NCBI GenBank assembly: GCA_008330645.1
Contig: VLTN01000080.1
Span: 62,001-126,000 of the forward strand
Direction: 5' to 3'
Length of the DNA stretch: 64,000 nucleotides
From: Cafeteria roenbergensis
Lineage: Eukaryota; Sar; Bigyra; Bicosoecida; Cafeteriaceae
Part shown: positions 20,501 to 61,787 of the stretch, piece after piece
Numbering within the stretch: position 1 is the first letter of the stretch
Layout of the letters: every line of letters starts with the position of its first letter
Position numbers and translations under genes: made by a program
Notes under the pieces: model-generated
Databases searched by the model: none
Told to the model about the DNA's origin: nothing
The model's input: only the letters and a program-made list of their open reading frames with translations

Positions 20501-23500
20501 TGTGTCGTCTGGTGACGGGACTGGCGGCGGGGCCGGCGCCGTGGTGGTCAAGGCTGGCGGTGCCGACACTGGCGCAGGGGCGGCCGTGAGCGTGGTGGGC
20601 GGCGCGTCGTCGGGCGGCCTGGGAGGGCCAGCGAGCCTGGTTGGCGGCGCGACGACCAACGCGGCTACGGCGGGCGGGTCCGTGAGCGTGCTGAGCGGAG
20701 TGGGCACGTCGGCGTCGGGCACGGTTGTGTTGGCGTCCGCGGACGGGGCCGGCGCGGTCAACTCCGGGTGGGTGCTGCTGACCTCGGGCGACTCGGCGAG
20801 CGGCACGGCTGGCACGGTGTCCGTGTCGTCTGGCACTGCGGGCACGTCGAGCGGGAACGTGGTCGCGGACACGGGTGCGGGCTCGGCGTCGTCGGGCACG
20901 CTGACGCTGACGACGGGCGCGGGCGGCAGCTCGTCGTCGGGCGCGGCGACGCTGTCGTCCGGGTCTGTGAGCGGCGGCACGTCGGGGATGGTGACTGTGT
21001 CGTCTGGTGATGGGACTGGCGGCGGGGCCGGCGCCGTGGTGGTCAAGGCTGGCGGTGCCGACACTGGCGCAGGGGCGGCCGTGAGCGTGGTGGGCGGCGC
21101 GTCGTCGGGCGGCCTGGGAGGGCCAGCGAGCCTGGTTGGCGGCGCGACGACCAACGCGGCTACGGCGGGCGGGTCCGTGAGCGTGCTGAGCGGAGTGGGC
21201 ACGTCAGCGTCGGGCACGGTTGTGTTGGCGTCCGCGGACGGGGCCGGCGCGGTCAACTCCGGGTGGGTGCTGCTGACCTCGGGCGACTCGGCGAGCGGCA
21301 CGGCTGGCACGGTGTCCGTGTCGTCTGGCACTGCGGGCACGTCGAGCGGGAACGTGGTCGCGGACACGGGTGCGGGCTCGGCGTCGTCGGGCACGCTGAC
21401 GCTGACGACGGGCGCGGGCGGCAGCTCGTCGTCGGGCGCGGCGACGCTGTCGTCCGGGTCTGTGAGCGGCGGCACGTCGGGCACGGTGACTGTGTCGACG
21501 GGCGCGGGCACGGCGGGCACTGGCGCGCTCACTGTGGCGACTGGCACGGCCAGCGGTGGTCCGTCGGGGGCGCTCGCGCTGTCGAGTGGCGGCGGCACGA
21601 CCGGCACCGGGGGCGTGACGGTGGCCAGTGGCGATGCGTCGGCGGGTGTGTCGGGGGGCGCCACGGTGACCACGGGCACGGGTACCACGTCGTCGGGCAC
21701 GCTGACGCTGACGACGGGCGCGGGCGGCAGCTCGTCGTCGGGCGCGGCGACGCTGTCGTCCGGGTCTGTGAGCGGCGGCACGTCGGGGATGGTGACTGTT
21801 TCGTCTGGTGATGGGACTGGCGGCGGGGCCGGCGCCGTGGTGGTCAAGGCTGGCGGTGCCGACACTGGCGCAGGGGCGGCCGTGAGCGTGGTGGGCGGCG
21901 CGTCGTCGGGCGGCCTGGGAGGGCCAGCGAGCCTGGTTGGCGGCGCGACGACCAACGCGGCTACGGCGGGCGGGTCCGTGAGCGTGCTGAGCGGAGTGGG
22001 CACGTCGGCGTCGGGCACGGTTGTGTTGGCGTCCGCGGACGGGGCCGGCGCGGTCAACTCCGGGTGGGTGCTGCTGACCTCGGGCGACTCGGCGAGCGGC
22101 ACGGCTGGCACGGTGTCCGTGTCGTCTGGCACTGCGGGCACGTCGAGCGGGAACGTGGTCGCGGACACGGGTGCGGGCTCGGCGTCGTCGGGCACGCTGA
22201 CGCTGACGACGGGCGCGGGCGGCAGCTCGTCGTCGGGCGCGGCGACGCTGTCGTCCGGGTCTGTGAGCGGCGGCACGTCGGGCACGGTGACTGTGTCGTC
22301 TGGTGATGGGACTGGCGGCGGGGCCGGCGCCGTGGTGGTCAAGGCTGGCGGTGCCGACACTGGCGCAGGGGCGGCCGTGAGTGTGGTGGGCGGCGCCTCG
22401 TCGTCGGCGGCCTGGGAGGGCCAGCGAGCCTGGTTGGCGGCGCGACGACCAACGCGGCTACGGCGGGCGGGTCCGTGAGCGTGCTGAGCGGAGTGGGCAC
22501 GTCGGCGTCTGGCACGGTTGTGTTGGCGTCCGCGGACGGGGCCGGCGCGGTCAACTCCGGGTGGGTGCTGCTGACCTCGGGCGACTCGGCGAGCGGCACG
22601 GCTGGCACGGTGTCCGTGTCGTCGGGCACTGCGGGCACGTCGAGCGGGAACGTGGTCGCGGACACGGGTGCGGGCTCGGCGTCGTCGGGCACGCTGACGC
22701 TGACGACGGGCGCGGGCGGCAGCTCGTCGTCGGGCGCGGCGACGCTGTCGTCCGGGTCTGTGAGCGGCGGCACGTCGGGCACGGTGACTGTGTCGTCGGG
22801 CGCGGGCACGGCGGGCACTGGCGCGCTCACTGTGGCGACTGGCACGGCCAGCGGTGGTCCGTCGGGGGCGCTCGCGCTGTCGAGTGGCGGCGGCACGACC
22901 GGCACCGGGGGCGTGACGGTGGCCAGTGGCGATGCGTCGGCGGGTGTGTCGGGGGGCGCCACGGTGACCACGGGCACGGGTACCACGTCGTCGGGCACGC
23001 TGACGCTGACGACGGGCGCGGGCGGCAGCTCGTCGTCGGGCGCGGCGACGCTGTCGTCCGGGTCTGTGAGCGGCGGCACGTCGGGCACGGTGACTGTGTC
23101 GTCTGGTGACGGGACTGGCGGCGGGGCCGGCGCCGTGGTGGTCAAGGCTGGCGGTGCCGACACTGGCGCAGGGGCGGCCGTGAGTGTGGTGGGCGGCGCG
23201 TCGTCGGGCGGCCTGGGAGGGCCAGCGAGCCTGGTTGGCGGCGCGACGACCAACGCGGCTACGGCGGGCGGGTCCGTGAGCGTGCTGAGCGGAGTGGGCA
23301 CGTCGGCGTCTGGCACGGTTGTGTTGGCGTCCGCGGACGGGGCCGGCGCGGTCAACTCCGGGTGGGTGCTGCTGACCTCGGGCGACTCGGCGAGCGGCAC
23401 GGCTGGCACGGTGTCCGTGTCGTCGGGCACTGCGGGCACGTCGAGCGGGAACGTGGTCGCGGACACGGGTGCGGGCTCGGCGTCGTCGGGCACGCTGACG

Positions 23501-26500
23501 CTGACGACGGGCGCGGGCGGCAGCTCGTCGTCGGGCGCGGCGACGCTGTCGTCCGGGTCTGTGAGCGGCGGCACGTCGGGCACGGTGACTGTGTCGTCGG
23601 GTGATGGGACTGGCGGCGGGGCCGGCGCCGTGGTGGTCAAGGCTGGCGGTGCCGACACTGGCGCAGGGGCGGCCGTGAGTGTGGTGGGCGGCGCGTCGTC
23701 GGGCGGCCTGGGAGGGCCAGCGAGCCTGGTTGGCGGCGCGACGACCAACGCGGCTACGGCGGGCGGGTCCGTGAGCGTGCTGAGCGGAGTGGGCACGTCG
23801 GCGTCGGGCACGGTTGTGTTGGCGTCCGCGGACGGGGCCGGCGCGGTCAACTCCGGGTGGGTGCTGCTGACCTCGGGCGACTCGGCGAGCGGCACGGCTG
23901 GCACGGTGTCCGTGTCGTCGGGCACTGCGGGCACGTCGAGCGGGAACGTGGTCGCGGACACGGGTGCGGGCTCGGCGTCGTCGGGCACGCTGACGCTGAC
24001 GACGGGCGCGGGCGGCAGCTCGTCGTCGGGCGCGGCGACGCTGTCGTCCGGGTCTGTGAGCGGCGGCACGTCGGGCACGGTGACTGTGTCGTCGGGCGCG
24101 GGCACGACGGGCACTGGCGCGCTCACTGTGGCGACTGGCACGGCCAGCGGTGGTCCGTCGGGGGCGCTCGCGCTGTCGAGTGGCGGCGGCACGACCGGCA
24201 CCGGGGGCGTGACGGTGGCCAGTGGCGATGCGTCGGCGGGTGTGTCGGGAGGCGCCACGGTGACCACGGGCACGGGTACCACGTCGTCGGGCACGCTGAC
24301 GCTGACGACGGGCGCGGGCGGCAGCTCGTCGTCGGGCGCGGCGACGCTGTCGTCCGGGTCTGTGAGCGGCGGCACGTCGGGCACGGTGACTGTTTCGTCT
24401 GGTGATGGGACTGGCGGCGGGGCCGGCGCCGTGGTGGTCAAGGCTGGCGGTGCCGACACTGGCGCAGGGGCGGCCGTGAGTGTGGTGGGCGGCGCGTCGT
24501 CGGGCGGCCTGGGAGGGCCAGCGAGCCTGGTTGGCGGCGCGACGACCAACGCGGCTACGGCGGGCGGGTCCGTGAGCGTGCTGAGCGGAGTGGGCACGTC
24601 GGCGTCGGGCACGGTTGTGTTGGCGTCCGCGGACGGGGCCGGCGCGGGTCAACTCCGGGTGGGTGCTGCTGACCTCGGGCGACTCGGCGAGCGGCACGGC
24701 TGGCACGGTGTCCGTGTCGTCTGGCACTGCGGGCACGTCGAGCGGGAACGTGGTCGCGGACACGGGTGCGGGCTCGGCGTCGTCGGGCACGCTGACGCTG
24801 ACGACGGGCGCGGGCGGCAGCTCGTCGTCGGGCGCGGCGACGCTGTCGTCCGGGTCTGTGAGCGGCGGCACGTCGGGCACGGTGACTGTGTCGTCTGGTG
24901 ATGGGACTGGCGGCGGGGCCGGCGCCGTGGTGGTCAAGGCTGGCGGTGCCGACACTGGCGCAGGGGCGGCCGTGAGTGTGGTGGGCGGCGCGTCGTCGGG
25001 CGGCCTGGGAGGGCCAGCGAGCCTGGTTGGCGGCGCGACGACCAACGCGGCTACGGCGGGCGGGTCCGTGAGCGTGCTGAGCGGAGTGGGCACGTCGGCG
25101 TCGGGCACGGTTGTGTTGGCGTCCGCGGACGGGGCCGGCGCGGTCAACTCCGGGTGGGTGCTGCTGACCTCGGGCGACTCGGCGAGCGGCACGGCTGGCA
25201 CGGTGTCCGTGTCGTCTGGCACTGCGGGCACGTCGAGCGGGAACGTGGTCGCGGACACGGGTGCGGGCTCGGCGTCGTCGGGCACGCTGACGCTGACGAC
25301 GGGCGCGGGCGGCAGCTCGTCGTCGGGCGCGGCGACGCTGTCGTCCGGGTCTGTGAGCGGCGGCACGTCGGGCACGGTGACTGTGTCGTCTGGTGATGGG
25401 ACTGGCGGCGGGGCCGGCGCCGTGGTGGTCAAGGCTGGCGGTGCCGACACTGGCGCAGGGGCAGCCGTGAGTGTGGTGGGCGGCGCGTCGTCGGGCGGCC
25501 TGGGAGGGCCAGCGAGCCTGGTTGGCGGCGCGACGACCAACGCGGCTACGGCGGGCGGGTCCGTGAGCGTGCTGAGCGGAGTGGGCACGTCGGCGTCTGG
25601 CACGGTTGTGTTGGCGTCCGCGGACGGGGCCGGCGCGGTCAACTCCGGGTGGGTGCTGCTGACCTCGGGCGACTCGGCGAGCGGCACGGCTGGCACGGTG
25701 TCCGTGTCGTCGGGCACTGCGGGCACGTCGAGCGGGAACGTGGTCGCGGACACGGGTGCGGGCTCGGCGTCGTCGGGCACGCTGACGCTGACGACGGGCG
25801 CGGGCGGCAGCTCGTCGTCGGGCGCGGCGACGCTGTCGTCCGGGTCTGTGAGCGGCGGCACGTCGGGCACGGTGACTGTGTCGTCGGGTGATGGGACTGG
25901 CGGCGGGGCCGGCGCCGTGGTGGTCAAGGCTGGCGGTGCCGACACTGGCGCAGGGGCGGCCGTGAGTGTGGTGGGCGGCGCGTCGTCGGGCGGCCTGGGA
26001 GGGCCAGCGAGCCTGGTTGGCGGCGCGACGACCAACGCGGCTACGGCGGGCGGGTCCGTGAGCGTGCTGAGCGGAGTGGGCACGTCGGCGTCGGGCACGG
26101 TTGTGTTGGCGTCCGCGGACGGGGCCGGCGCGGTCAACTCCGGGTGGGTGCTGCTGACCTCGGGCGACTCGGCGAGCGGCACGGCTGGCACGGTGTCCGT
26201 GTCGTCGGGCACTGCGGGCACGTCGAGCGGGAACGTGGTCGCGGACACGGGTGCGGGCTCGGCGTCGTCGGGCACGCTGACGCTGACGACGGGCGCGGGC
26301 GGCAGCTCGTCGTCGGGCGCGGCGACGCTGTCGTCCGGGTCTGTGAGCGGCGGCACGTCGGGCACGGTGACTGTGTCGTCGGGCGCGGGCACGACGGGCA
26401 CTGGCGCGCTCACTGTGGCGACTGGCACGGCCAGCGGTGGTCCGTCGGGGGCGCTCGCGCTGTCGAGTGGCGGCGGCACGACCGGCACCGGGGGCGTGAC

Positions 26501-29500
26501 GGTGGCCAGTGGCGATGCGTCGGCGGGTGTGTCGGGAGGCGCCACGGTGACCACGGGCACGGGTACCACGTCGTCGGGCACGCTGACGCTGACGACGGGC
26601 GCGGGCGGCAGCTCGTCGTCGGGCGCGGCGACGCTGTCGTCCGGGTCTGTGAGCGGCGGCACGTCGGGCACGGTGACTGTTTCGTCTGGTGATGGGACTG
26701 GCGGCGGGGCCGGCGCCGTGGTGGTCAAGGCTGGCGGTGCCGACACTGGCGCAGGGGCGGCCGTGAGTGTGGTGGGCGGCGCGTCGTCGGGCGGCCTGGG
26801 AGGGCCAGCGAGCCTGGTTGGCGGCGCGACGACCAACGCGGCTACGGCGGGCGGGTCCGTGAGCGTGCTGAGCGGAGTGGGCACGTCGGCGTCGGGCACG
26901 GTTGTGTTGGCGTCCGCGGACGGGGCCGGCGCGGTCAACTCCGGGTGGGTGCTGCTGACCTCGGGCGACTCGGCGAGCGGCACGGCTGGCACGGTGTCCG
27001 TGTCGTCTGGCACTGCGGGCACGTCGAGCGGGAACGTGGTCGCGGACACGGGTGCGGGCTCGGCGTCGTCGGGCACGCTGACGCTGACGACGGGCGCGGG
27101 CGGCAGCTCGTCGTCGGGCGCGGCGACGCTGTCGTCCGGGTCTGTGAGCGGCGGCACGTCGGGCACGGTGACTGTGTCGTCTGGTGATGGGACTGGCGGC
27201 GGGGCCGGCGCCGTGGTGGTCAAGGCTGGCGGTGCCGACACTGGCGCAGGGGCGGCCGTGAGTGTGGTGGGCGGCGCGTCGTCGGGCGGCCTGGGAGGGC
27301 CAGCGAGCCTGGTTGGCGGCGCGACGACCAACGCGGCTACGGCGGGCGGGTCCGTGAGCGTGCTGAGCGGAGTGGGCACGTCGGCGTCGGGCACGGTTGT
27401 GTTGGCGTCCGCGGACGGGGCCGGCGCGGTCAACTCCGGGTGGGTGCTGCTGACCTCGGGCGACTCGGCGAGCGGCACGGCTGGCACGGTGTCCGTGTCG
27501 TCTGGCACTGCGGGCACGTCGAGCGGGAACGTGGTCGCGGACACGGGTGCGGGCTCGGCGTCGTCGGGCACGCTGACGCTGACGACGGGCGCGGGCGGCA
27601 GCTCGTCGTCGGGCGCGGCGACGCTGTCGTCCGGGTCTGTGAGCGGCGGCACGTCGGGCACGGTGACTGTGTCGTCTGGTGATGGGACTGGCGGCGGGGC
27701 CGGCGCCGTGGTGGTCAAGGCTGGCGGTGCCGACACTGGCGCAGGGGCAGCCGTGAGTGTGGTGGGCGGCGCGTCGTCGGGCGGCCTGGGAGGGCCAGCG
27801 AGCCTGGTTGGCGGCGCGACGACCAACGCGGCTACGGCGGGCGGGTCCGTGAGCGTGCTGAGCGGAGTGGGCACGTCGGCGTCTGGCACGGTTGTGTTGG
27901 CGTCCGCGGACGGGGCCGGCGCGGTCAACTCCGGGTGGGTGCTGCTGACCTCGGGCGACTCGGCGAGCGGCACGGCTGGCACGGTGTCCGTGTCGTCGGG
28001 CACTGCGGGCACGTCGAGCGGGAACGTGGTCGCGGACACGGGTGCGGGCTCGGCGTCGTCGGGCACGCTGACGCTGACGACGGGCGCGGGCGGCAGCTCG
28101 TCGTCGGGCGCGGCGACGCTGTCGTCCGGGTCTGTGAGCGGCGGCACGTCGGGCACGGTGACTGTGTCGTCGGGTGATGGGACTGGCGGCGGGGCCGGCG
28201 CCGTGGTGGTCAAGGCTGGCGGTGCCGACACTGGCGCAGGGGCGGCCGTGAGTGTGGTGGGCGGCGCGTCGTCGGGCGGCCTGGGAGGGCCAGCGAGCCT
28301 GGTTGGCGGCGCGACGACCAACGCGGCTACGGCGGGCGGGTCCGTGAGCGTGCTGAGCGGAGTGGGCACGTCGGCGTCGGGCACGGTTGTGTTGGCGTCC
28401 GCGGACGGGGCCGGCGCGGTCAACTCCGGGTGGGTGCTGCTGACCTCGGGCGACTCGGCGAGCGGCACGGCTGGCACGGTGTCCGTGTCGTCGGGCACTG
28501 CGGGCACGTCGAGCGGGAACGTGGTCGCGGACACGGGTGCGGGCTCGGCGTCGTCGGGCACGCTGACGCTGACGACGGGCGCGGGCGGCAGCTCGTCGTC
28601 GGGCGCGGCGACGCTGTCGTCCGGGTCTGTGAGCGGCGGCACGTCGGGCACGGTGACTGTGTCGTCGGGCGCGGGCACGACGGGCACTGGCGCGCTCACT
28701 GTGGCGACTGGCACGGCCAGCGGTGGTCCGTCGGGGGCGCTCGCGCTGTCGAGTGGCGGCGGCACGACCGGCACCGGGGGCGTGACGGTGGCCAGTGGCG
28801 ATGCGTCGGCGGGTGTGTCGGGAGGCGCCACGGTGACCACGGGCACGGGTACCACGTCGTCGGGCACGCTGACGCTGACGACGGGCGCGGGCGGCAGCTC
28901 GTCGTCGGGCGCGGCGACGCTGTCGTCCGGGTCTGTGAGCGGCGGCACGTCGGGGACGGTGACTGTGTCGACGGGCGCGGGCACGGCGGGCACTGGCACG
29001 CTCACTGTGGCGACTGGCACGGCCAGCGGTGGTCCGTCGGGGGCGCTCGCGCTGTCGAGTGGCGGCGGCACGACCGGCACCGGGGGCGTGACGGTGGCCA
29101 GTGGCGATGCGTCGGCGGGTGTGTCGGGGGGCGCCACGGTGACCACGGGCACGGGTACCACGTCGTCGGGCACGCTGACGCTGACGACGGGCGCGGGCGG
29201 CAGCTCGTCGTCGGGCGCGGCGACGCTGTCGTCCGGGTCTGTGAGCGGCGGCACGTCGGGCACGGTGACTGTTTCGTCTGGTGACGGGACTGGCGGCGGG
29301 GCCGGCGCCGTGGTGGTCAAGGCTGGCGGTGCCGACACTGGCGCAGGGGCGGCCGTGAGCGTGGTGGGCGGCGCGTCGTCGGGCGGCCTGGGAGGGCCAG
29401 CGAGCCTGGTTGGCGGCGCGACGACCAACGCGGCTACGGCGGGCGGGTCCGTGAGCGTGCTGAGCGGAGTGGGCACGTCGGCGTCTGGCACGGTTGTGTT

Positions 29501-31079
29501 GGCGTCCGCGGACGGGGCCGGCGCGGCCAACTCCGGGTGGGTGCTGCTGACCTCGGGCGACTCGGCGAGCGGCACGGCTGGCACGGTGTTCGTGTCGTCT
29601 GGCACCGGAGGCACCTCGAGCGGGAACGTGGTCGCGGACACGGGTGCGGGCTCGGCGTCGTCGGGCACGCTGACGCTGACGACGGGCGCGGGCGGCAGCT
29701 CGTCGTCGGGCGCGGCGACGCTGTCGTCCGGGTCTGTGAGCGGCGGCACGTCGGGCACGGTGACTGTGTCGACGGGCGCGGGCACGACGGGCACTGGCGC
29801 GCTCACTGTGGCGACTGGCACGGCCAGCGGTGGTCCGTCGGGGGCGCTCGCGCTGTCGAGTGGCGGCGGCACGACCGGCACCGGGGGCGTGACGGTGGCC
29901 AGTGGCGATGCGTCGGCGGGTGTGTCGGGAGGCGCCACGGTGACCACGGGCACGGGTACCACGTCGTCGGGCACGCTGACGCTGACGACGGGCGCGGGCG
30001 GCAGCTCGTCGTCGGGCGCGGCGACGCTGTCGTCCGGGTCTGTGAGCGGCGGCACGTCGGGGACGGTGACTGTGTCGACGGGCGCGGGCACGGCGGGCAC
30101 TGGCACGCTCACTGTGGCGACTGGCACGGCCAGCGGTGGTCCGTCGGGGGCGCTCGCGCTGTCGAGTGGCGGCGGCACGACCGGCACCGGGGGCGTGACG
30201 GTGGCCAGTGGCGATGCGTCGGCGGGTGTGTCGGGGGGCGCCACGGTGACCACGGGCACGGGTACCACGTCGTCGGGCACGCTGACGCTGACGACGGGCG
30301 CGGGCGGCAGCTCGTCGTCGGGCGCGGCGACGCTGTCGTCCGGGTCTGTGAGCGGCGGCACGTCGGGGACGGTGACTGTGTCGACGGGCGCGGGAACGGC
30401 GGGCACTGGCGCGCTCACTGTGGCGACTGGCGCGGCCAGCGGTGGTCCGTCGGGGGCGCTCGCGCTGTCGAGTGGCGGCGGCACGACCGGCACCGGGGGC
30501 GTGACGGTGGCCAGTGGCGTGGCGTCTGCTGGAGCGTCTGGGACTCTGCTTCTCTCGAGCGGAGCTGCTTCGGGAGGCAGCTCGGGACATGCAATCCTTG
30601 CTGCGGGTGCTGTGTCTGGCGGATCTGCAGCTGGCTCGATCTCGCTTCTGGGTGGGACTGGCGACAGTGGCAATGGAGGGAGCATCTACTTGGAGCCCGG
30701 GTCTTCATCGACGGGGACTGCTGGGTCGGTACAGATTGGCGGAGGGTCACCGTTCCGCGCAGTGTTCGCCGGTGCAGTTGACCTGTCGAGCAAATGGACG
30801 AGCTCAACCACGCTGGCTGCCGGAGAGCGGAACAAGGACACCTTCTCTGGGGCGGACATTGCCAGCATCGTTAACTGGACCCCTGCTGTGGGCGACATTG
30901 TGTTGGTGCAGCCCCAGTTCGACCACGACGGAAGCAGTTCGGACGACTTCATGCACGTGTCAGGCCGAGTGTCAGCTGCCGGGGACTTGGAGATCACTGT
31001 CGCGAACAGCCAGGGCTCGACCACGTCCCTTTCGGCATACTTGACAGGCACGTACGGCATCGTCGTGTACCGAGTGTAG
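14534..31079 (+). CDS. Secreted EGF-repeat protein with long beta-solenoid-like repeat domain
   Basis: Exon 1 (14534-14561, 28 nt, phase 1) ends at GTGAGC. A 531-nt intron ends in a long C/T tract and CAG at 15092, and exon 2 runs 15093-31079. The junction creates a clean signal peptide: MRRPPAALLGR, then a hydrophobic core ending AGPALAQ, then CPDRC. Three EGF-like modules (Cys-rich, DNA 15150-15620) and a fourth near 16375-16450 surround a region rich in N-glycosylation sequons. From about 18389 to 30520 come glycine/serine/threonine repeats with a ~17-residue period (SGTVTVSSGDGTGGGAG type), which suggests a parallel beta-solenoid adhesin. The unique ending (TYGIVVYRV, stop 31077-31079) shows no membrane anchor. 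The frame is broken by length changes near 20222 (+1), 22396-22405 (net +2) and 24646 (+1), all in near-identical repeats. Without them the product is about 5,336 residues; taken literally it stops at 20515. Function inferred: cell-surface or matrix adhesion. Confidence 0.8.
18389..30520 (+). repeat. Nested coding tandem repeat: 495-bp (D) and 306-bp (A) modules
   Basis: Two module types alternate and share their last ~100 bp. D begins GDGTGGGAG and spans 165 codons; A begins GAGTAGTG or GAGTTGTG and spans 102 codons. Reading left to right the order is A DD A DDD A DD A DD A DDDD A DDDD AA D AAA, with the last A merging into unique sequence. Each module is itself built of ~16-17-residue repeats. 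Copies are nearly identical, differing by synonymous or single-codon changes (for example tctggc/tcgggc). Confidence 0.9.
24088..28661 (+). repeat. Two adjacent near-identical ~2,286-bp blocks (A-D-D-D-D)
   Basis: Block 1 (about 24088-26376) and block 2 (about 26377-28661) carry the same order of minor variants. The shared markers are gcaggggcagcc at 25458 and 27742, the tctggcacgg variant near 25596 and 27882, and the same order of tct-ggc and tcg-ggc codons. This points to a recent tandem duplication. Confidence 0.75.
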
Positions 31080-53324: not shown

Positions 53325-53328
53325 GGCG

Positions 53329-53400
53329 TGCCTCAACCAGGGATCGAACCTGAGACCTCGACATTACTAGTGTCGCGCTCTACCACTGAGCTATTAAGGC
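53329..53400 (-). tRNA. tRNA-Thr(AGU), copy 1
   Basis: A 72-nt cloverleaf read by eye. Acceptor GCCTTAA pairs with TTGAGGC (one G-T), discriminator A. The D arm holds the A box (TAGCTCAGTGG). Anticodon stem CGACA/TGTCG encloses loop CTAGTAA, so the anticodon is AGT (threonine, ACN). The T arm holds the B box (GGTTCGATCCC). There is no intron and no encoded CCA. It is identical to the two copies at 53604 and 61716 and shares short flanks with the latter. Confidence 0.93.
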
Positions 53401-53603: not shown

Positions 53604-53675
53604 GCCTTAATAGCTCAGTGGTAGAGCGCGACACTAGTAATGTCGAGGTCTCAGGTTCGATCCCTGGTTGAGGCA
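53604..53675 (+). tRNA. tRNA-Thr(AGU), copy 2
   Basis: Same 72 bases as copy 1 but in the opposite orientation, 203 bp away. A T/A-rich element (tctatatttttatc, about 53556-53570) lies 34-48 bp upstream, where TATA-like elements assist some Pol III genes. Flanks differ from those of the other two copies. Confidence 0.93.
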
Positions 53676-54212
53676 CGCTTATTTTTTCTCTCTAAAAAGC
53701 AACATGGCCCCGACTGCAGCGTTGTTTGATGCCTGCTCTTGTTTCCAGGACGGTTCCCAGTGCGAGAGCGAGAGGTGCGGTTGATGTGTTTCGCAAGACC
53801 CCACCCGACCAATGCAGCCTGGAAGCCACAGCCAGATTACACTGAAATTGCCCTGACCAGCTGACAATGGCGTTTTGGCGCGCCAGACGCGATCTTGTTT
53901 CCCGTTTCGCGCTGCTCTTTCGCAATCGCACGCAGAAAAAGAAAGCTCGACGCGGACCAACTAGTGCAACCACTATACCCAAAGCAGCGAGGTTATTTGC
54001 CACTTCAATTGAGGGAGACAGTTTAATTTCGATGCCGAGGCGAAGCGTCTTGACAGCATGGACTTCGTGGTGGAAAAGAAGGGCAAAAATAGTCCACAGC
54101 GAACGCCCCAAACACGACTGATGCAGATCAGGGTGCAGTGATTCTGATTTTGCGTGGAAAACCTTGACGCAGCTGGAAAAGCGGACTCGAGTGACGAAGA
54201 GAGCGGCAGCCG
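53676..54212. other. Unique spacer left of the seven-copy array
   Basis: Less GC-rich than the array. It contains an 84-codon plus-strand open frame (53867-54121) with no recognisable motif, which I do not call a gene. I looked for U1, U2, U4, U5 and U6 signatures on both strands and saw none. It joins the array abruptly at about 54213. Confidence 0.55.
53682..53687 (+). terminator. Pol III T6 terminator of the second tRNA-Thr
   Basis: Six T residues beginning seven bases after the discriminator base. Confidence 0.75.
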
Positions 54213-54631
54213 GGGGGCGGCGGGGGAACGCCTGCGGGGCGCGCGCCACACTCCCCGGAGTCGCACAGGGCGCGCTGCGGCTCCGACTGCGCGTGGCGCC
54301 GGCTCTCCCGGGGGCGGATCCGCGCGGCGGCCGCTCCGGGGCGCCCGGACGAGCCCGCCGCTCTCGCGCGAGGTCTCGTGGAGCGCGCGGCTGGTTCCCC
54401 GAGCGCGTGGTGCGTGTGGCGCCGCGCGAGAGAGGGCACGCCGGCGGACCCGTGCAGGCTGTGCATGCGCATTCGTCAACATCCAATCCACGCACAGTCG
54501 TCTACGGACAGCGCCGGCACACGCGCGGCGCACGTGCGGGCGTTCGCCGCCCCCGCAGCGCGACCTCGCGGCGCAAGACCGCCCCAGGCGGCCCCGCCAG
54601 CGCCGGCGCGTGCGGGAGTTGCAGTCGGGGC

Positions 54632-55088
54632 TCAGGCATCGGTCTTGCCCTTGGCGCCCTTGGCGCCCTTGGCACCGCCCTTGGCGGCGGCGGGCTTGCT
54701 GCGGACGGCCGACCAGGGGCGCATCGGGGGCGGGGAGGGGCGGTGAGGCGGGTCGCACGAGCGCGCCGCGAGCGCCCGCCCGGGCCGTGCGACCGAGGGC
54801 CGTCGAGCCGGAGGATTCCGACGCATCGCAAGACTCACGCCTTAGCGCCAGCGGCGCCGGCCTTGGCACCAGCCTTGGGGGCAGCGTCCTCTGCGGTGCG
54901 TCGGGCAGAGGGGCAGGCGCGCGCACACACACGGCAGAGGCGAGGGTCAACAAGTGTCCGCGGTCCCGAGCACGGGCGCGAATACGTGGCCGGTTCGATT
55001 GCGCCCGCGGCGCAGCGGCGCGAGAGCGGGGAGCGGCGCGCAGACGGCCCGGCGGCGGCGCGGCCCGACACTCACTCTTGCCGGGCAT
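54632..55088 (-). CDS. Small Lys/Ala/Gly-rich basic protein, array copy 1
   Basis: Three exons. Exon 1 is 55088-55076 (13 nt, phase 1, ends AAGA|GTGAGT), exon 2 is 54890-54839 (52 nt, between ACCGCAG and GTGAGT), and exon 3 is 54698-54632 (67 nt, after GTCCGCAG, ending GCC TGA). Introns are 185 and 140 nt. Phases match and the spliced product is 43 residues: MPGKKDAAPKAGAK, an AGAAGAK linker, then AKPAAAKGGAKGAKGAKGKTDA-type sequence. It has 11 Lys and 2 Asp and no hydrophobic residue larger than the initiator Met. The composition resembles histone H1 tails or the N-terminal arm of basic ribosomal proteins, but no folded domain is present. Role inferred: nucleic-acid binding or charge neutralisation. 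This copy alone has Ala at residue 37 and two extra bases in intron 1. Confidence 0.65.
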
Positions 55089-55698
55089 GTCTGGGGGAGT
55101 CTCGAGCTTGAGAGAGGGGAGTGCGCTCCGGGGGGGCGGCGGGGAGCAGCGGACGGTCGCTCTGCCGCGCGCGCGATCGACGGCGCTTCACTCCCCCCGA
55201 GGGGACCACGCGGCGGGCTCTGCCGTGAGGATGCGGTCGGTCCCGCGCGGAGGGGCGCGGGGAGCGTGCGGGCGTGCGGGCGGGCGGCGAGGGGACGCCT
55301 GCGGGGCGCGCGCCACACTCCCCGGAGTCGCACAGGGCGCGCTGCGGCGCCGACTGCGCGTGGCGCCGGCTCTCCCGGGGGCGGATCCGCGCGGCGGCCG
55401 CTCCGGGGCGCCCGGACGAGCCCGCCGCTCTCGCGCGAGGTCTCGTGGAGCGCGCGGCTGGTTCCCCGAGCGCGTGGTGCGTGTGGCGCCGCGCGAGAGA
55501 GGGCACGCCGGCGGACCCGTGCAGGCTGTGCATGCGCATTCGTCAACATCCAATCCACGCACAGTCGTCTACGGACAGCGCCGGCACACGCGCGGCGCAC
55601 GTGCGGGCGTTCGCCGCCCCCGCAGCGCGACCTCGCGGCGCAAGACCGCCCCAGGCGGCCCCGCCAGCGCCGGCGCGTGCGGGAGTTGCAGTCAGGGC

Positions 55699-56153
55699 TC
55701 AGGCATCGGTCTTGCCCTTGCCGCCCTTGGCGCCCTTGGCACCGCCCTTGGCGGCGGCGGGCTTGCTGCGGACGGCCGACCAGGGGCGCATCGGGGGCGG
55801 GGAGGGGCGGTGAGGCGGGTCGCACGAGCGCGCCGCGAGCGCCCGCCCGGGCCGTGCGACCGAGGGCCGTCGAGCCGGAGGATTCCGACGCATCGCAAGA
55901 CTCACGCCTTAGCGCCAGCGGCGCCGGCCTTGGCACCAGCCTTGGGGGCAGCGTCCTCTGCGGGGCGTCGGGCAGAGGGGCAGGCGCGCACACACACGGC
56001 AGAGGCGAGGGTCAACAAGTGTCCGCGGTCCCGAGCACGGGCGCGAATACGTGGCCGGTTCGATTGCGCCCGCGGCGCAGCGGCGCGAGAGCGGGGAGCG
56101 GCGCGCAGACGGCCCGGCGGCGGCGCGGCCCGACACTCACTCTTGCCGGGCAT
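55699..56153 (-). CDS. Small Lys/Ala/Gly-rich basic protein, array copy 2
   Basis: Exons 56153-56141, 55957-55906 and 55765-55699; 43 residues with the consensus ending GAKGGKGKTDA. All four splice sites are intact. The acceptor before exon 2 reads CCCCGCAG rather than the ACCGCAG of copy 1. Confidence 0.65.
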
Positions 56154-56764
56154 GTTTGGGGGAGTCTCGAGCTTGAGAGAGGGGAGTGCGCTCCGGGGGG
56201 GCGGCGGGGAGCAGCGGACGGTCGCTCTGCCGCGCGCGCGATCGACGGCGCTTCACTCCCCCCGAGGGGACCACGCGGCGGGCTCTGCTGTGGGGATGCG
56301 GTCGGCCCCGCGCGGAGGGGCGCGGGGAGCGTGCGGGCGTGCGGGCGGGCGGCGGGGGGACGCCTGCGGGGCGCGCGCCACACTCCCCGGAGTCGCACAG
56401 GGCGCGCTGCGGCTCCGACTGCGCGTGGCGCCGGCTCTCCCCAAGCGCGGATCCGCGTGGCGGCCGCTCCGGGGCGCCCGGACGAGCCCGCCGCTCTCGC
56501 GCGAGGTCTCGTGGAGCGCGCGGCTGGTTCCCCGAGCGCGTGGTGCGTGTGGCGCCGCGCGAGAGAGGGCACGCCGGCGGACCCGTGCAGGCTGTGCATG
56601 CGCATTCGTCAACATCCAATCCACGCACAGTCGTCTACGGACAGCGCCGGCACACGCGCGGCGCACGTGCGGGCGTTCGCCGCCCCCGCAGCGCGACCTC
56701 GCGGCGCAAGACCGCCCCAGGCGGCCCCGCCAGCGCCGGCGCGTGCGGGAGTTGCAGTCGGGGC

Positions 56765-57219
56765 TCAGGCATCGGTCTTGCCCTTGCCGCCCTTGGCGCC
56801 CTTGGCACCGCCCTTGGCGGCGGCGGGCTTGCTGCGGACGGCCGACCAGGGGCGCATCGGGGGCGGGGAGGGGCGGTGAGGCGGGTCGCACGAGCGCGCC
56901 GCGAGCGCCGGCCCGGGCCGTGCGACCGAGGGCCGTCGAGCCGGAGGATTCCGACGCATCGCAAGACTCACGCCTTAGCGCCAGCGGCGCCGGCCTTGGC
57001 ACCAGCCTTGGGGGCAGCGTCCTCTGCGGTGCGTCGGGCAGAGGGGCAGGCGCGCACACACACGGCAGAGGCGAGGGTCAACAAGTGTCCGCGGTCCCGA
57101 GCACGGGCGCGAATACGTGGCCGGTTCGATTGCGCCCGCGGCGCAGCGGCGCGAGAGCGGGGAGCGGCGCGCAGACGGCCCGGCGGCGGCGCGGCCCGAC
57201 ACTCACTCTTGCCGGGCAT
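56765..57219 (-). CDS. Small Lys/Ala/Gly-rich basic protein, array copy 3
   Basis: Exons 57219-57207, 57023-56972 and 56831-56765; consensus 43 residues. Intron 2 carries a private G/C change near 56910. Splice sites are conserved. Confidence 0.65.
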
Positions 57220-57830
57220 GTTTGGGGGAGTCTCGAGCTTGAGAGAGGGGAGTGCGCTCCGGGGGGGCGGCGGGGAGCAGCGGACGGTCGCTCTGCCGCG
57301 CGCGCGATCGACGGCGCTTCACTCCCCCCGAGGGGACCACGCGGCGGGCTCTGCCGTGAGGATGCGGTCGGCCCCGCGCGGAGGGGCGCGGGGAGCGTGC
57401 GGGCGTGCGGGCGGGCGGCGAGGGGACGCCTGCGGGGCGCGCGCCACACTCCCCGGCGTCGCACAGGGCGCGCTGCGGCGCCGACTGCGCGTGGCGCCGG
57501 CTCTCCCCAAGCGCGGATCCGCGCGGCGGCCGCTCCGGGGCGCCCGGACGAGCCCGCCGCTCTCGCGCGAGGTCTCGTGGAGCGCGCGGCTGGTTCCCCG
57601 AGCGCGTGGTGCGTGTGGCGCCGCGCGAGAGAGGGCACGCCGGCGGACCCGTGCAGGCTGTGCATGCGCATTCGTCAACATCCAATCCACGCACAGTCGT
57701 CTACGGACAGCGCCGGCACACGCGCGGCGCACGTGCGGGCGTTCGCCGCCCCCGCAGCGCGACCTCGCGGCGCAAGACCGCCCCAGGCGGCCCCGCCAGC
57801 GCCGGCGCGTGCGGGAGTTGCAGTCGGGGC

Positions 57831-58276
57831 TCAGGCATCGGTCTTGCCCTTGCCGCCCTTGGCACCGCCCTTGGCGGCGGCGGGCTTGCTGCGGACGGCC
57901 GACCAGGGGCGCATCGGGGGCGGGGAGGGGCGGTGAGGCGGGTCGCACGAGCGCGCCGCGAGCGCCCGCCCGGGCCGTGCGACCGAGGGCCGTCGAGCCG
58001 GAGGATTCCGACGCATCGCAAGACTCACGCCTTAGCGCCAGCGGCGCCGGCCTTGGCACCAGCCTTGGGGGCAGCGTCCTCTGCGGTGCGTCGGGCAGAG
58101 GGGCAGGCGCGCACACACACGGCAGAGGCGAGGGTCAACAAGTGTCCGCGGTCCCGAGCACGGGCGCGAATACGTGGCCGGTTCGATTGCGCCCGCGGCG
58201 CAGCGGCGCGAGAGCGGGGAGCGGCGCGCAGACGGCCCGGCGGCGGCGCGGCCCGACACTCACTCTTGCCGGGCAT
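57831..58276 (-). CDS. Small Lys/Ala/Gly-rich basic protein, array copy 4 (shorter)
   Basis: Exons 58276-58264, 58080-58029 and 57888-57831. Nine bases are missing in exon 3, removing one Lys-Gly-Ala triplet in frame and giving 40 residues. An in-frame loss that spares the rest is what one expects of a translated gene, though a single event is weak evidence. Confidence 0.65.
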
Positions 58277-58886
58277 GTTTGGGGGAGTCTCGAGCTTGAG
58301 AGAGGGGAGTGCGCTCCGGGGGGGCGGCGGGGAGCAGCGGACGGTCGCTCTGCCGCGCGCGCGATCGACGGCGCTTCACTCCCCCCGAGGGGACCACGCG
58401 GCGGGCTCTGCCGTGAGGATGCGGTCGGTCCCGCGCGGAGGGGCGCGGGGAGCGTGCGGGCGTGCGGGCGGGCGGCGAGGGGACGCCTGCGGGGCGCGCG
58501 CCACACTCCCCGGAGTCGCACAGGGCGCGCTGCGGCGCCGACTGCGCGTGGCGCCGGCTCTCCCGGGGGCGGATCCGCGCGGCGGCCGCTCCGGGGCGCC
58601 CGGACGAGCCCGCCGCTCTCGCGCGAGGTCTCGTGGAGCGCGCGGCTGGTTCCCCGAGCGCGTGGTGCGTGTGGCGCCGCGCGAGAGAGGGCACGCCGGC
58701 GGACCCGTGCAGGCTGTGCATGCGCATTCGTCAACATCCAATCCACGCACAGTCGTCTACGGACAGCGCCGGCACACGCGCGGCGCACGTGCGGGCGTTC
58801 GCCGCCCCCGCAGCGCGACCTCGCGGCGCAAGACCGCCCCAGGCGGCCCCGCCAGCGCCGGCGCGTGCGGGAGTTGCAGTCAGGGC

Positions 58887-59341
58887 TCAGGCATCGGTCT
58901 TGCCCTTGCCGCCCTTGGCGCCCTTGGCACCGCCCTTGGCGGCGGCGGGCTTGCTGCGGACGGCCGACCAGGGGCGCATCGGGGGCGGGGAGGGGCGGTG
59001 AGGCGGGTCGCACGAGCGCGCCGCGAGCGCCCGCCCGGGCCGTGCGACCGAGGGCCGTCGAGCCGGAGGATTCCGACGCATCGCAAGACTCACGCCTTAG
59101 CGCCAGCGGCGCCGGCCTTGGCACCAGCCTTGGGGGCAGCGTCCTCTGCGGGGCGTCGGGCAGAGGGGCAGGCGCGCACACACACGGCAGAGGCGAGGGT
59201 CAACAAGTGTCCGCGGTCCCGAGCACGGGGGCGAATACGTGGCCGGCCCGATTGCGCCCGCGGCGCAGCGGCGCGAGAGCGGGGAGCGGCGCGCAGACGG
59301 CCCGGCGGCGGCGCGGCCCGACACTCACTCTTGCCGGGCAT
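58887..59341 (-). CDS. Small Lys/Ala/Gly-rich basic protein, array copy 5
   Basis: Exons 59341-59329, 59145-59094 and 58953-58887; consensus 43 residues. Intron 1 has the gggggcgaatacgtggccggccc variant shared with copies 6 and 7, so these three form a subgroup. Confidence 0.65.
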
Positions 59342-59952
59342 GTTTGGGGGAGTCTCGAGCTTGAGAGAGGGGAGTGCGCTCCGGGGGGGCGGCGGGGAGC
59401 AGCGGACGGTCGCTCTGCCGCGCGCGCGATCGACGGCGCTTCACTCCCCCCGAGGGGACCACGCGGCGGGCTCTGCTGTGGGGATGCGGTCGGCCCCGCG
59501 CGGAGGGGCGCGCGGAGCGTGCGGGCGTGCGGGCGGGCGGCGGGGGAACGCCTGCGGGGCGCGCGCCACACTCCCCGGCGTCGCACAGGGCGCGCTGCGG
59601 CTCCGACTGCGCGTGGCGCCGGCTCTCCCCAAGCGCGGATCCGCGTGGCGGCCGCTCCGGGGCGCCCGGACGAGCCCGCCGCTCTCGCGCGAGGTCTCGT
59701 GGGGCGCGCAGTTGGTTCCCCGAGCGCGTGGTGCGTGTGGCGCCGCGCGAGAGAGGGCACGCCGGCGGACCCGTGCAGGCTGTGCATGCGCATTCGTCAA
59801 CATCCAATCCACGCACAGTCGTCTACGGACAGCGCCGGCACACGCGCGGCGCACGTGCGGGCGTTCGCCGCCCCCGCAGCGCGACCTCGCGGCGCAAGAC
59901 CGCCCCAGGCGGCCCCGCCAGCGCCGGCGCGTGCGGGAGTTGCAGTCGGGGC

Positions 59953-60412
59953 TCAGGCATCGGTCTTGCCCTTGCCGCCCTTGGCGCCCTTGGCACCGCC
60001 CTTGGCGGCGGCGGGCTTGCTGCGGACGGCCGACCAGGGGCGCATCGGGGGCGGGGCGGGGCGGGGCGGTGAGGCGGGTCGCACGAGCGCGCCGCGAGCG
60101 CCCGCCCGGGCCGTGCGACCGAGGGCCGTCGAGCCGGAGGATTCCGACGCATCGCAAGACTCACGCCTTAGCGCCAGCGGCGCCGGCCTTGGCACCAGCC
60201 TTGGGGGCAGCGTCCTCTGCGGGGCGTCGGGCAGAGGGGCAGGCGCGCACACACACGGCAGAGGCGAGGGTCAACAAGTGTCCGCGGTCCCGAGCACGGG
60301 GGCGAATACGTGGCCGGCCCGATTGCGCCCGCGGCGCAGCGGCGCGAGAGCGGGGAGCGGCGCGCAGACGGCCCGGCGGCGGCGCGGCCCGACACTCACT
60401 CTTGCCGGGCAT
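59953..60412 (-). CDS. Small Lys/Ala/Gly-rich basic protein, array copy 6
   Basis: Exons 60412-60400, 60216-60165 and 60019-59953; consensus 43 residues. Intron 2 is five bases longer than in copies 1-5 through an expanded ggggcgg run. Confidence 0.65.
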
Positions 60413-61023
60413 GTCTGGGGGAGTCTCGAGCTTGAGAGAGGGGAGTGCGCTCCGGGGGGGCGGCGGGGAGCAGCGGACGGTCGCTCTGCCGCGCGCGCGA
60501 TCGACGGCGCTTCACTCCCCCCGAGGGGACCACGCGGCGGGCTCTGCTGTGGGGATGCGGTCGGCCCCGCGCGGAGGGGCGCGGCGAGCGTGCGGGCGTG
60601 CAGGCGGGCGGCGGGGGGACGCCTGCGGGGCGCGCGCCACACTCCCCGGAGTCGCACAGGGCGCGCTGCGGCTCCGACTGCGCGTGGCGCCGGCTCTCCC
60701 CAAGCGCGGATCCGCGTGGCGGCCGCTCCGGGGCGCCCGGACGAGCCCGCCGCTCTCGCGCGAGGTCTCGTGGGGCGCGCAGTTGGTTCCCCGAGCGCGT
60801 GGTGCGTGTGGCGCCGCGCGAGAGAGGGCACGCCGGCGGACCCGTGCAGGCTGTGCATGCGCATTCGTCAACATCCAATCCACGCACAGTCGTCTACGGA
60901 CAGCGCCGGCACACGCGCGGCGCACGTGCGGGCGTTCGCCGCCCCCGCAGCGCGACCTCGCGGCGCAAGACCGCCCCAGGCGGCCCCGCCAGCGCCGGCG
61001 CGTGCGGGAGTTGCAGTCGGGGC

Positions 61024-61483
61024 TCAGGCATCGGTCTTGCCCTTGCCGCCCTTGGCGCCCTTGGCACCGCCCTTGGCGGCGGCGGGCTTGCTGCGGACGG
61101 CCGACCAGGGGCGCATCGGGGGCGGGGCGGGGCGGGGCGGTGAGGCGGGTCGCACGAGCGCGCCGCGAGCGCCCGCCCGGGCCGTGCGACCGAGGGCCGT
61201 CGAGCCGGAGGATTCCGACGCATCGCAAGACTCACGCCTTAGCGCCAGCGGCGCCGGCCTTGGCACCAGCCTTGGGGGCAGCGTCCTCTGCGGGGCGTCG
61301 GGCAGAGGGGCAGGCGCGCACACACACGGCAGAGGCGAGGGTCAACAAGTGTCCGCGGTCCCGAGCACGGGGGCGAATACGTGGCCGGCCCGATTGCGCC
61401 CGCGGCGCAGCGGCGCGAGAGCGGGGAGCGGCGCGCAGACGGCCCGGCGGCGGCGCGGCCCGACACTCACTCTTGCCGGGCAT
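61024..61483 (-). CDS. Small Lys/Ala/Gly-rich basic protein, array copy 7
   Basis: Exons 61483-61471, 61287-61236 and 61090-61024; consensus 43 residues. It shares the longer intron 2 with copy 6. Its upstream region ends abruptly at about 61680, close to the third tRNA, so it has only about 200 bp of array sequence as promoter, whereas inner copies have about 610 bp. Confidence 0.65.
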
Positions 61484-61706
61484 GTTTGGGGGAGTCTCGA
61501 GCTTGAGAGAGGGGAGTGCGCTCCGGGGGGGCGGCGGGGAGCAGCGGACGGTCGCTCTGCCGCGCGCGCGATCGACGGCGCTTCACTCCCCCCGAGGGGA
61601 CCACGCGGCGGGCTCTGCTGTGGGGATGCGGTCGGCCCCGCGCGGAGGGGCGCGGCGAGCGTGCGGGCGTGCGGGCGGGCGAGGGTGGGCGGTGGGGGAA
61701 TCGACC

Positions 61707-61711: not shown

Positions 61712-61715
61712 GGCG

Positions 61716-61787
61716 TGCCTCAACCAGGGATCGAACCTGAGACCTCGACATTACTAGTGTCGCGCTCTACCACTGAGCTATTAAGGC
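61716..61787 (-). tRNA. tRNA-Thr(AGU), copy 3
   Basis: Identical to copies 1 and 2 over all 72 bases. On the plus strand it shares caaaaaggcg before and tggcac after with copy 1 at 53329, and nothing obvious beyond that. The pair therefore brackets the array in direct orientation. Confidence 0.93.

Follow-up and report, generated by a model that had tools for sequence, protein, structure and literature searches.

The stretch of Cafeteria roenbergensis DNA analyzed here (the window; 64,000 nucleotides, bases 62001-126000 of contig C80, VLTN01000080.1) contains a tandem array of seven small genes, each with two introns and each predicted to encode a basic protein of 40–43 amino acids rich in lysine, alanine and glycine. 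Together with paralogues elsewhere in the genome, including a longer form of 89 amino acids, these genes make up a family that we term KA. Judged by their composition, the KA proteins are probably nuclear DNA-binding proteins of two sizes, acting in the manner of the single-domain histone H1-like proteins that lack a globular domain.

A seven-copy array of two-intron genes

Comparison of one unit with the surrounding region by blastn placed the array at 54233..61681 of the window, where seven units of about 1066 base pairs (bp) are arranged head to tail as direct repeats with a unit spacing of 1056–1071 bp. The genes are on the minus strand, a detail that adds to the initial annotation, which gave no strand. 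Exon 1 is 13 nucleotides (nt) and exon 2 is 52 nt long in all seven copies, while exon 3 is 67 nt in six of them and 58 nt in the copy with its ATG at 58276, a difference of 9 nt, or three codons. Intron 1 spans 183 nt, except in the copy with its ATG at 55088 (185 nt), and intron 2 spans 140 or 145 nt. All 28 splice-site dinucleotides are GT/AG and the frame is open in 7/7 copies. The initial annotation had proposed seven units with two introns and a 40–43-residue product, 28 intact splice sites, a single exon length change (copy 4) that is a multiple of three, and introns differing by 2 and 5 bases, and each of these features was borne out. Its count of 11 lysines in every unit holds for six copies; the 40-residue copy has 10.

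The genes occupy 61024..61483 (copy 1; exons 61483-61471, 61287-61236 and 61090-61024), 59953..60412 (copy 2; exons 60412-60400, 60216-60165 and 60019-59953), 58887..59341 (copy 3; exons 59341-59329, 59145-59094 and 58953-58887), 57831..58276 (copy 4; exons 58276-58264, 58080-58029 and 57888-57831), 56765..57219 (copy 5; exons 57219-57207, 57023-56972 and 56831-56765), 55699..56153 (copy 6; exons 56153-56141, 55957-55906 and 55765-55699) and 54632..55088 (copy 7; exons 55088-55076, 54890-54839 and 54698-54632), all on the minus strand. Copy 4 yields 40 amino acids and the other six yield 43. The predicted product is MPGKKDAAPKAGAKAGAAGAKAKPAAAKGGAKGAKGGKGKTDA or a near copy, and copy 7 carries Ala at one site where the other 43-residue copies carry Gly.

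The KA family occupies four loci

Searching the genome (36,303,456 bp in 167 contigs) with one unit returned the same unit at the start of contig C46 and at the end of contig C35, as well as a four-copy array on C4 that is 67–68% identical. Because the pieces on C35 and C46 end or begin inside the array and run in the same direction, the assembler may have divided a single locus between them; counting these contig ends as one, there are four KA loci. A scan for the exon 1 start pattern, which members with another first exon would escape, gave 26 matches, and the 26th, on C75, was dropped for its 3 mismatches. At least 25 KA gene starts genome-wide have the exact first exon and donor, with 7 on C80, 5 on C46, 3 on C35, 4 on C4 and 6 on C6. 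The window holds only part of the family, its seven copies being one of the four loci.

The C4 and C6 loci are diverged paralogues of the window array. In the C6 gene the exons measure 13, 79 and 178 nt; the first exon and both intron phases are the same as in the window, and the product has 89 amino acids. Frames are intact in 21 of the 25 copies (C80, 7/7; C46, 3/5; C35, 2/3; C4, 4/4; C6, 5/6). One-base exon indels are present in four copies, two of which are the copies nearest contig ends, and assembly error and decay are indistinguishable as their cause. A tblastn search with the long form (88 of 89 residues used) matched only C6 and missed the known short forms, and is therefore insensitive. 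The codon pattern for the KAAPAK repeat of the long form matched 28 times genome-wide, 23 times on C6. The five matches elsewhere belong to other frames and were rejected; the one on C32 is a Lys/Ala-rich stretch within a larger frame.

Exons are conserved between diverged copies

One C80 copy (ATG at 56153) was compared with one C4 copy, with identities taken over ungapped columns. Exons 2 and 3 are 94% (49/52) and 88% (56/64) identical, compared to 62% (87/140) and 65% (91/140) for the two introns; the upstream 130 nt are 80% identical and the downstream 300 nt are 50% identical. Splice phases are equal in the two copies. All three differences in exon 2 are silent third-position changes. Across the 11 differing codons, six changes are silent at the third position, four are replacements and one codon is missing. 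Codons 33–37 contain the missing codon together with three replacements; elsewhere, 5/6 differing codons are silent. The changes are few in number. Splice phases and frame are retained in the three diverged forms, with length differences that are multiples of three. Because the introns have drifted while the splice sites and phase have stayed, the KA genes are almost certainly coding and spliced. The C4 and C6 paralogues likewise back the earlier proposal of an amplified, intron-bearing coding gene whose product is composed like an abundant nucleic-acid-binding protein. Both strands of the array also contain long frames that cross the units, including one of 1873 amino acids on the plus strand. 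These were rejected; they are stop-free owing to the G+C content, 70.5% in the window, and are unsupported by the C4 comparison.

KA proteins resemble the tails of H1

The window product contains 11 Lys, 15 Ala and 10 Gly among its 43 residues, with an isoelectric point of 10.4 and a net charge of about +9. The C6 product, with 21 Lys, 39 Ala, 10 Pro and 14 Gly among 89 residues, has an isoelectric point of 10.5 and a net charge of +17, and contains the KAAPAK repeats. KA proteins have almost no Ser or Thr and no arginine, and no hydrophobic start suggesting secretion was seen by eye. The globular winged-helix domain PF00538 has no match in the 42-, 43- and 89-residue products. Each consists of a Lys/Ala(/Pro)-rich chain alone, with no other Pfam domain above noise, which is the make-up of a single-domain H1-like protein.

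Passages of PMC3486875 describe the single-domain H1 of kinetoplastids as Lys/Ala/Pro-rich, without a globular domain and encoded in 'H1 gene arrays'; Trypanosoma brucei has five such genes, and its H1 facilitates higher-order chromatin structure. TgH1-like of Toxoplasma gondii, as presented in portions of PMC9769792, is a 91-residue protein without a globular domain that is found on chromatin and resembles an H1 tail, and its absence leads to less compaction of peripheral chromatin. The C6 form, at 89 residues, compares with TgH1-like in size, while the window form has 40–43. Excerpts of PMC10858212 state that the H1 of Alveolata and Euglenozoa is the C-terminal part only, show a boxed globular domain in the alignment of brown algal H1 (Sargassum and Ectocarpus, which are stramenopiles) and list H1 sequences of diatoms and Phytophthora sojae. 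The initial annotation held that no named family fits, which stands as far as Pfam is concerned, but the 89-residue paralogue resembles these single-domain, globular-less H1-like proteins. Going by composition and shared gene structure, the 43-residue form would represent a short variant of such proteins. No description of a KA family for Cafeteria was found in open-licence literature; in the main texts of two Cafeteria genome papers (PMC6972860, in which RNA-seq served for gene prediction, and PMC8547959) the word 'histone' is absent, as is 'tRNA' (transfer RNA) in that of PMC8547959.

A mechanism can be proposed on this basis. The two-intron spliceosomal gene would give rise to a protein that begins with MPGKK and continues as a Lys/Ala/Gly chain, probably disordered, equivalent to part of the C-terminal domain of H1 and lacking the globular domain. 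Many such short, flexible, positive chains, which have no domain for docking on the nucleosome, would bind to linker DNA or other DNA. Their action would be electrostatic, with neutralization of phosphate charge leading to chromatin compaction, as reported for the kinetoplastid and Toxoplasma single-domain H1 proteins. Tandem copies may provide the amount needed for a stoichiometric chromatin protein, and the two lengths are possibly weak and strong versions. Expression, nuclear location, DNA binding and dosage are all properties that we infer for KA.

KA and core histone genes share a start element

The core histone genes H4, H3, H2A and H2B are clustered in units of about 6 kilobases (kb) on C73, C27 and C54, and more histone-fold genes are present on other contigs. 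Those in the clusters read as single frames. In 25/25 KA copies, which represent three array types, the hexamer GCACTC precedes the ATG by 36 or 41 nt; in copy 1 it lies at 61514..61519 (minus strand), 36 nt before the ATG, and the spacing is identical in the other six window copies. It also precedes the ATG in all four types of cluster core histone gene, at 21–47 nt (one gene each). In contrast, it was found in 0/3 non-histone starts and 0/10 HSP70/Ras-type starts. The background frequency, 41 occurrences in 70,904 bases with both strands counted, would place a GCACTC in an 80-nt stretch with a probability of 0.023. These controls are small in number. The HSP70/Ras starts were drawn from 18 pieces, eight of which were dropped for want of an in-frame ATG, and their start codons were guessed; at least two look wrong, being placed 0 and 1 codons ahead of the domain. 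Tubulin 5' ends, also taken as promoter controls, included a start codon in only 1/6 pieces.

A second conserved element, GAGTGAAGC[AG]CC[AG]TCGATCGCGC, is located farther upstream, at 61566..61588 in copy 1 and at 60495-60517, 59424-59446, 58359-58381, 57302-57324, 56236-56258 and 55171-55193 in copies 2–7, all on the minus strand. It has 18 exact sites genome-wide, all at short-form KA arrays, and one site elsewhere with 3 mismatches.

At their 3' ends, the core histone genes have a stem-loop, GGTGTT-CATTC-AACACC, that follows 6/6 gene ends in the cluster piece examined and folds into a stem of 6 bp closed by a loop of 5 nt (z scores of −3.5 and −2.6). Allowing up to one mismatch, the genome contains 44 such sites (42 exact), all on C27, C54 and C73. 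Two of the C54 stem-loops (36886 and 37934) have no recognized histone gene before them; no Lys-rich frame precedes them on the same strand, and one Lys-rich stretch is on the other strand. A scan for 17-residue stretches rich in Lys, Ala, Pro and Gly detected KA exons in 4/4 KA pieces and only the H2B and H4 tails in the three cluster pieces (L055, L057 and L058). Open reading frames of at least 95 amino acids within the clusters were listed for piece L055 alone.

Evidence against an H1-like role and alternative explanations

Several observations weigh against an H1-like role for the KA proteins. For the 42-, 43- and 89-residue products, no Pfam family, and no histone profile among them, exceeds noise (the best, a sporozoite antigen, has an expect value (E) of 1.3), and no PDB chain matches the 43-residue product, the only one compared. 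The KA arrays lie outside the core histone clusters, and the genome scan at up to one mismatch gave no core-histone 3' stem-loop on KA contigs. Because none of the 44 sites is at a KA array, KA genes do not appear to use the core-histone type of 3' end. Just one of three non-cluster H3-type genes has GCACTC (52 nt before the ATG); because the other two lack it, the element does not mark every histone gene, and it may serve more generally as an initiator for short-leader genes. Basic chains of low complexity evolve convergently, which makes composition weak evidence of family membership. The H1-like proteins of kinetoplastids and Toxoplasma were compared by description, and alignment scores for such low-complexity chains would tell little. 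With 43 residues, the short form is about half the size of TgH1-like. Finally, (S/T)PxK-type sites are typical of H1 tails, and KA proteins, in which Ser and Thr are nearly absent, have none.

A search of the genome with PF00538 belongs to the same side of the balance, as it returned one match, at C1:877081-877236, with 24.8–25.4 bits against a cut-off of 22.4. This match sits inside an open frame of 3472 amino acids with apparent internal repeats, and the 300 residues around it, which include 9 Lys and 27 Arg versus 20 Asp and 31 Glu, have no Lys-rich tail. We do not think that it is an H1, and that the genome has no second match counts in favour of an H1-like role for KA. The search reads exon by exon and could miss a globular domain split by an intron; the absence of globular H1 from the genome is not proven by it.

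Composition cannot separate DNA from RNA binding, and the KA proteins could instead be abundant basic RNA-binding proteins, such as nucleolar or ribosome-associated factors. TgH1-like is itself also nucleolar and associates with ribosomal proteins, according to parts of PMC9769792, and the missing histone profile match fits this explanation too. However, the ribosomal protein families are among those that stay below noise in Pfam, the 89-residue form with its KAAPAK repeats is H1-tail-like, and the GCACTC start element is common to KA and core histone genes. Overall, we consider RNA binding a rather unlikely explanation.

We regard it as improbable that KA is an unrelated basic peptide family, whether an HMGN-like accessory chromatin protein, a protamine-like condenser or a defence peptide. 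The long paralogue shifts the family towards H1-type Lys/Ala/Pro repeats, protamines contain arginine, unlike KA proteins, and a secretion-type start was not apparent by eye. Such a family would nevertheless suit the very short, Gly-rich chain with almost no Ser or Thr, as well as the lack of confirmed relatives in Pfam, in the PDB (43-residue form) and, for the 89-residue form, in viral contigs (264 peptide-pattern stretches, 0 confirmed) and prokaryote genomes (588 stretches, 0 confirmed), two collections that are not aimed at protists and carry little weight.

A non-coding transcript, in which the arrays host intronic small RNAs or are satellites and the frame is incidental, is very improbable: small intron-bearing units stand in tandem beside tRNA genes, GC-rich sequence yields many chance open frames and 4/25 copies have exon indels, but exons are conserved and introns are not, changes are silent at third positions, the frame is intact in 21/25 copies and three diverged forms with length steps in multiples of three, and Rfam, for described families, has no match in one unit (window 55090-56400, E up to 5) and no small RNA in the array besides the flanking tRNAs.

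tRNA genes flank the KA loci

All four KA loci adjoin tRNA genes. In the window, tRNA-Thr (AGT) genes flank the array at 53328..53400 (minus strand), at 53604..53676 (plus strand; about 560 bp from its left end) and at 61715..61787 (minus strand; about 35 bp from its right end). Two repeats in these flanks, one inverted (81 nt, 98%) and one direct (88 nt, identical), reach beyond the tRNA itself. On C4, tRNA-Thr(CGT) is about 100 bp from one side and two further tRNAs are 5.5 kb past the other end. A tRNA-His lies about 440 bp from the C35 piece and about 125 bp from the C46 piece, and tRNA-Tyr lies about 245 bp and 1040 bp from the C6 locus. Genome-wide there are 405 tRNA candidates; of these, 63 were listed with scores, including some on C167, a contig taken as mitochondrial. 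For any one side of a locus, the probability of a tRNA lying no more than 540 bp away is about 0.006, and because four loci stand beside different tRNAs, this adjacency is unlikely to be due to chance, though tRNAs cluster here. ARAGORN found no tRNA in the three core histone cluster pieces.

The tRNA flanks are not specific to KA, because a tRNA-flanked segment on C7 holds what by eye is an ankyrin-like repeat gene, and no KA gene. There (C7:588200-592700), the ankyrin-like gene has five 340-bp tandem repeats and is set between 100-nt perfect inverted copies that include the tRNA genes. Tandem tRNA arrays are also present at C47:58995-63548, C1:365847-372736 and C1:513615-516535, with spacings of about 640, 850 and 475 bp. 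In other systems, tRNA genes act as boundaries. A boundary role for the KA-flanking tRNAs, or spread driven by recombination, are only suggestions here.

The window has other repeats. A long block of 495- and 306-bp repeats, 98–99% alike, spans 18600-30526; a minus-strand frame of 4098 amino acids runs across it, with plus-strand frames of about 2100 amino acids over parts of it. At 13114-13368, a minisatellite repeats a 13-bp unit 19.5 times (95% matches).

Implications and comparison with known systems

An H1-like role for the KA proteins would have several consequences. To our knowledge, they would be among the smallest linker-histone-like proteins. The tail-only H1 stated for Alveolata and Euglenozoa in the excerpts of PMC10858212 would occur within stramenopiles too, and the role of the H1 tail without a globular domain could be addressed in a culturable flagellate that hosts CroV and mavirus. 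Independently of this, the tRNA-flanked layout raises a testable question on the boundaries of multi-copy arrays. It is possible, and we offer this tentatively, that this bicosoecid replaced the globular H1 kept by brown algae with spliced H1 tails of about 43 and 89 residues, encoded by at least 25 tandem genes in arrays whose flanking tRNA genes serve as chromatin boundaries, with a promoter element in common with the core histone genes, though not their stem-loop.

Like the core histone genes in their clusters, KA genes are multi-copy and have GCACTC shortly before the ATG. Those cluster genes differ in being single-frame with a 3' stem-loop, whereas KA genes contain two introns and lack this stem-loop. 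Kinetoplastid genes are mostly intron-less, and the two spliceosomal introns of KA genes likewise set them apart from kinetoplastid H1. The likeness to the kinetoplastid single-domain H1 proteins, as far as the passages cited above describe them, lies in a short, Lys/Ala-rich chain without a globular domain and in several similar genes arranged in arrays. The kinetoplastid chains are Lys/Ala/Pro-rich, while the 43-residue KA form is Gly-rich. With the tripartite H1 of brown algae, KA proteins have in common the basic C-terminal tail; the globular domain boxed in the cited part of that alignment was not found in them. The portions of PMC9769792 cited describe one gene for TgH1-like, whereas the KA family numbers at least 25 copies, spread over four loci, and includes an additional short form of 40–43 residues. 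Both lack a globular domain, and at 91 and 89 residues TgH1-like and the C6 paralogue are of near-equal size.

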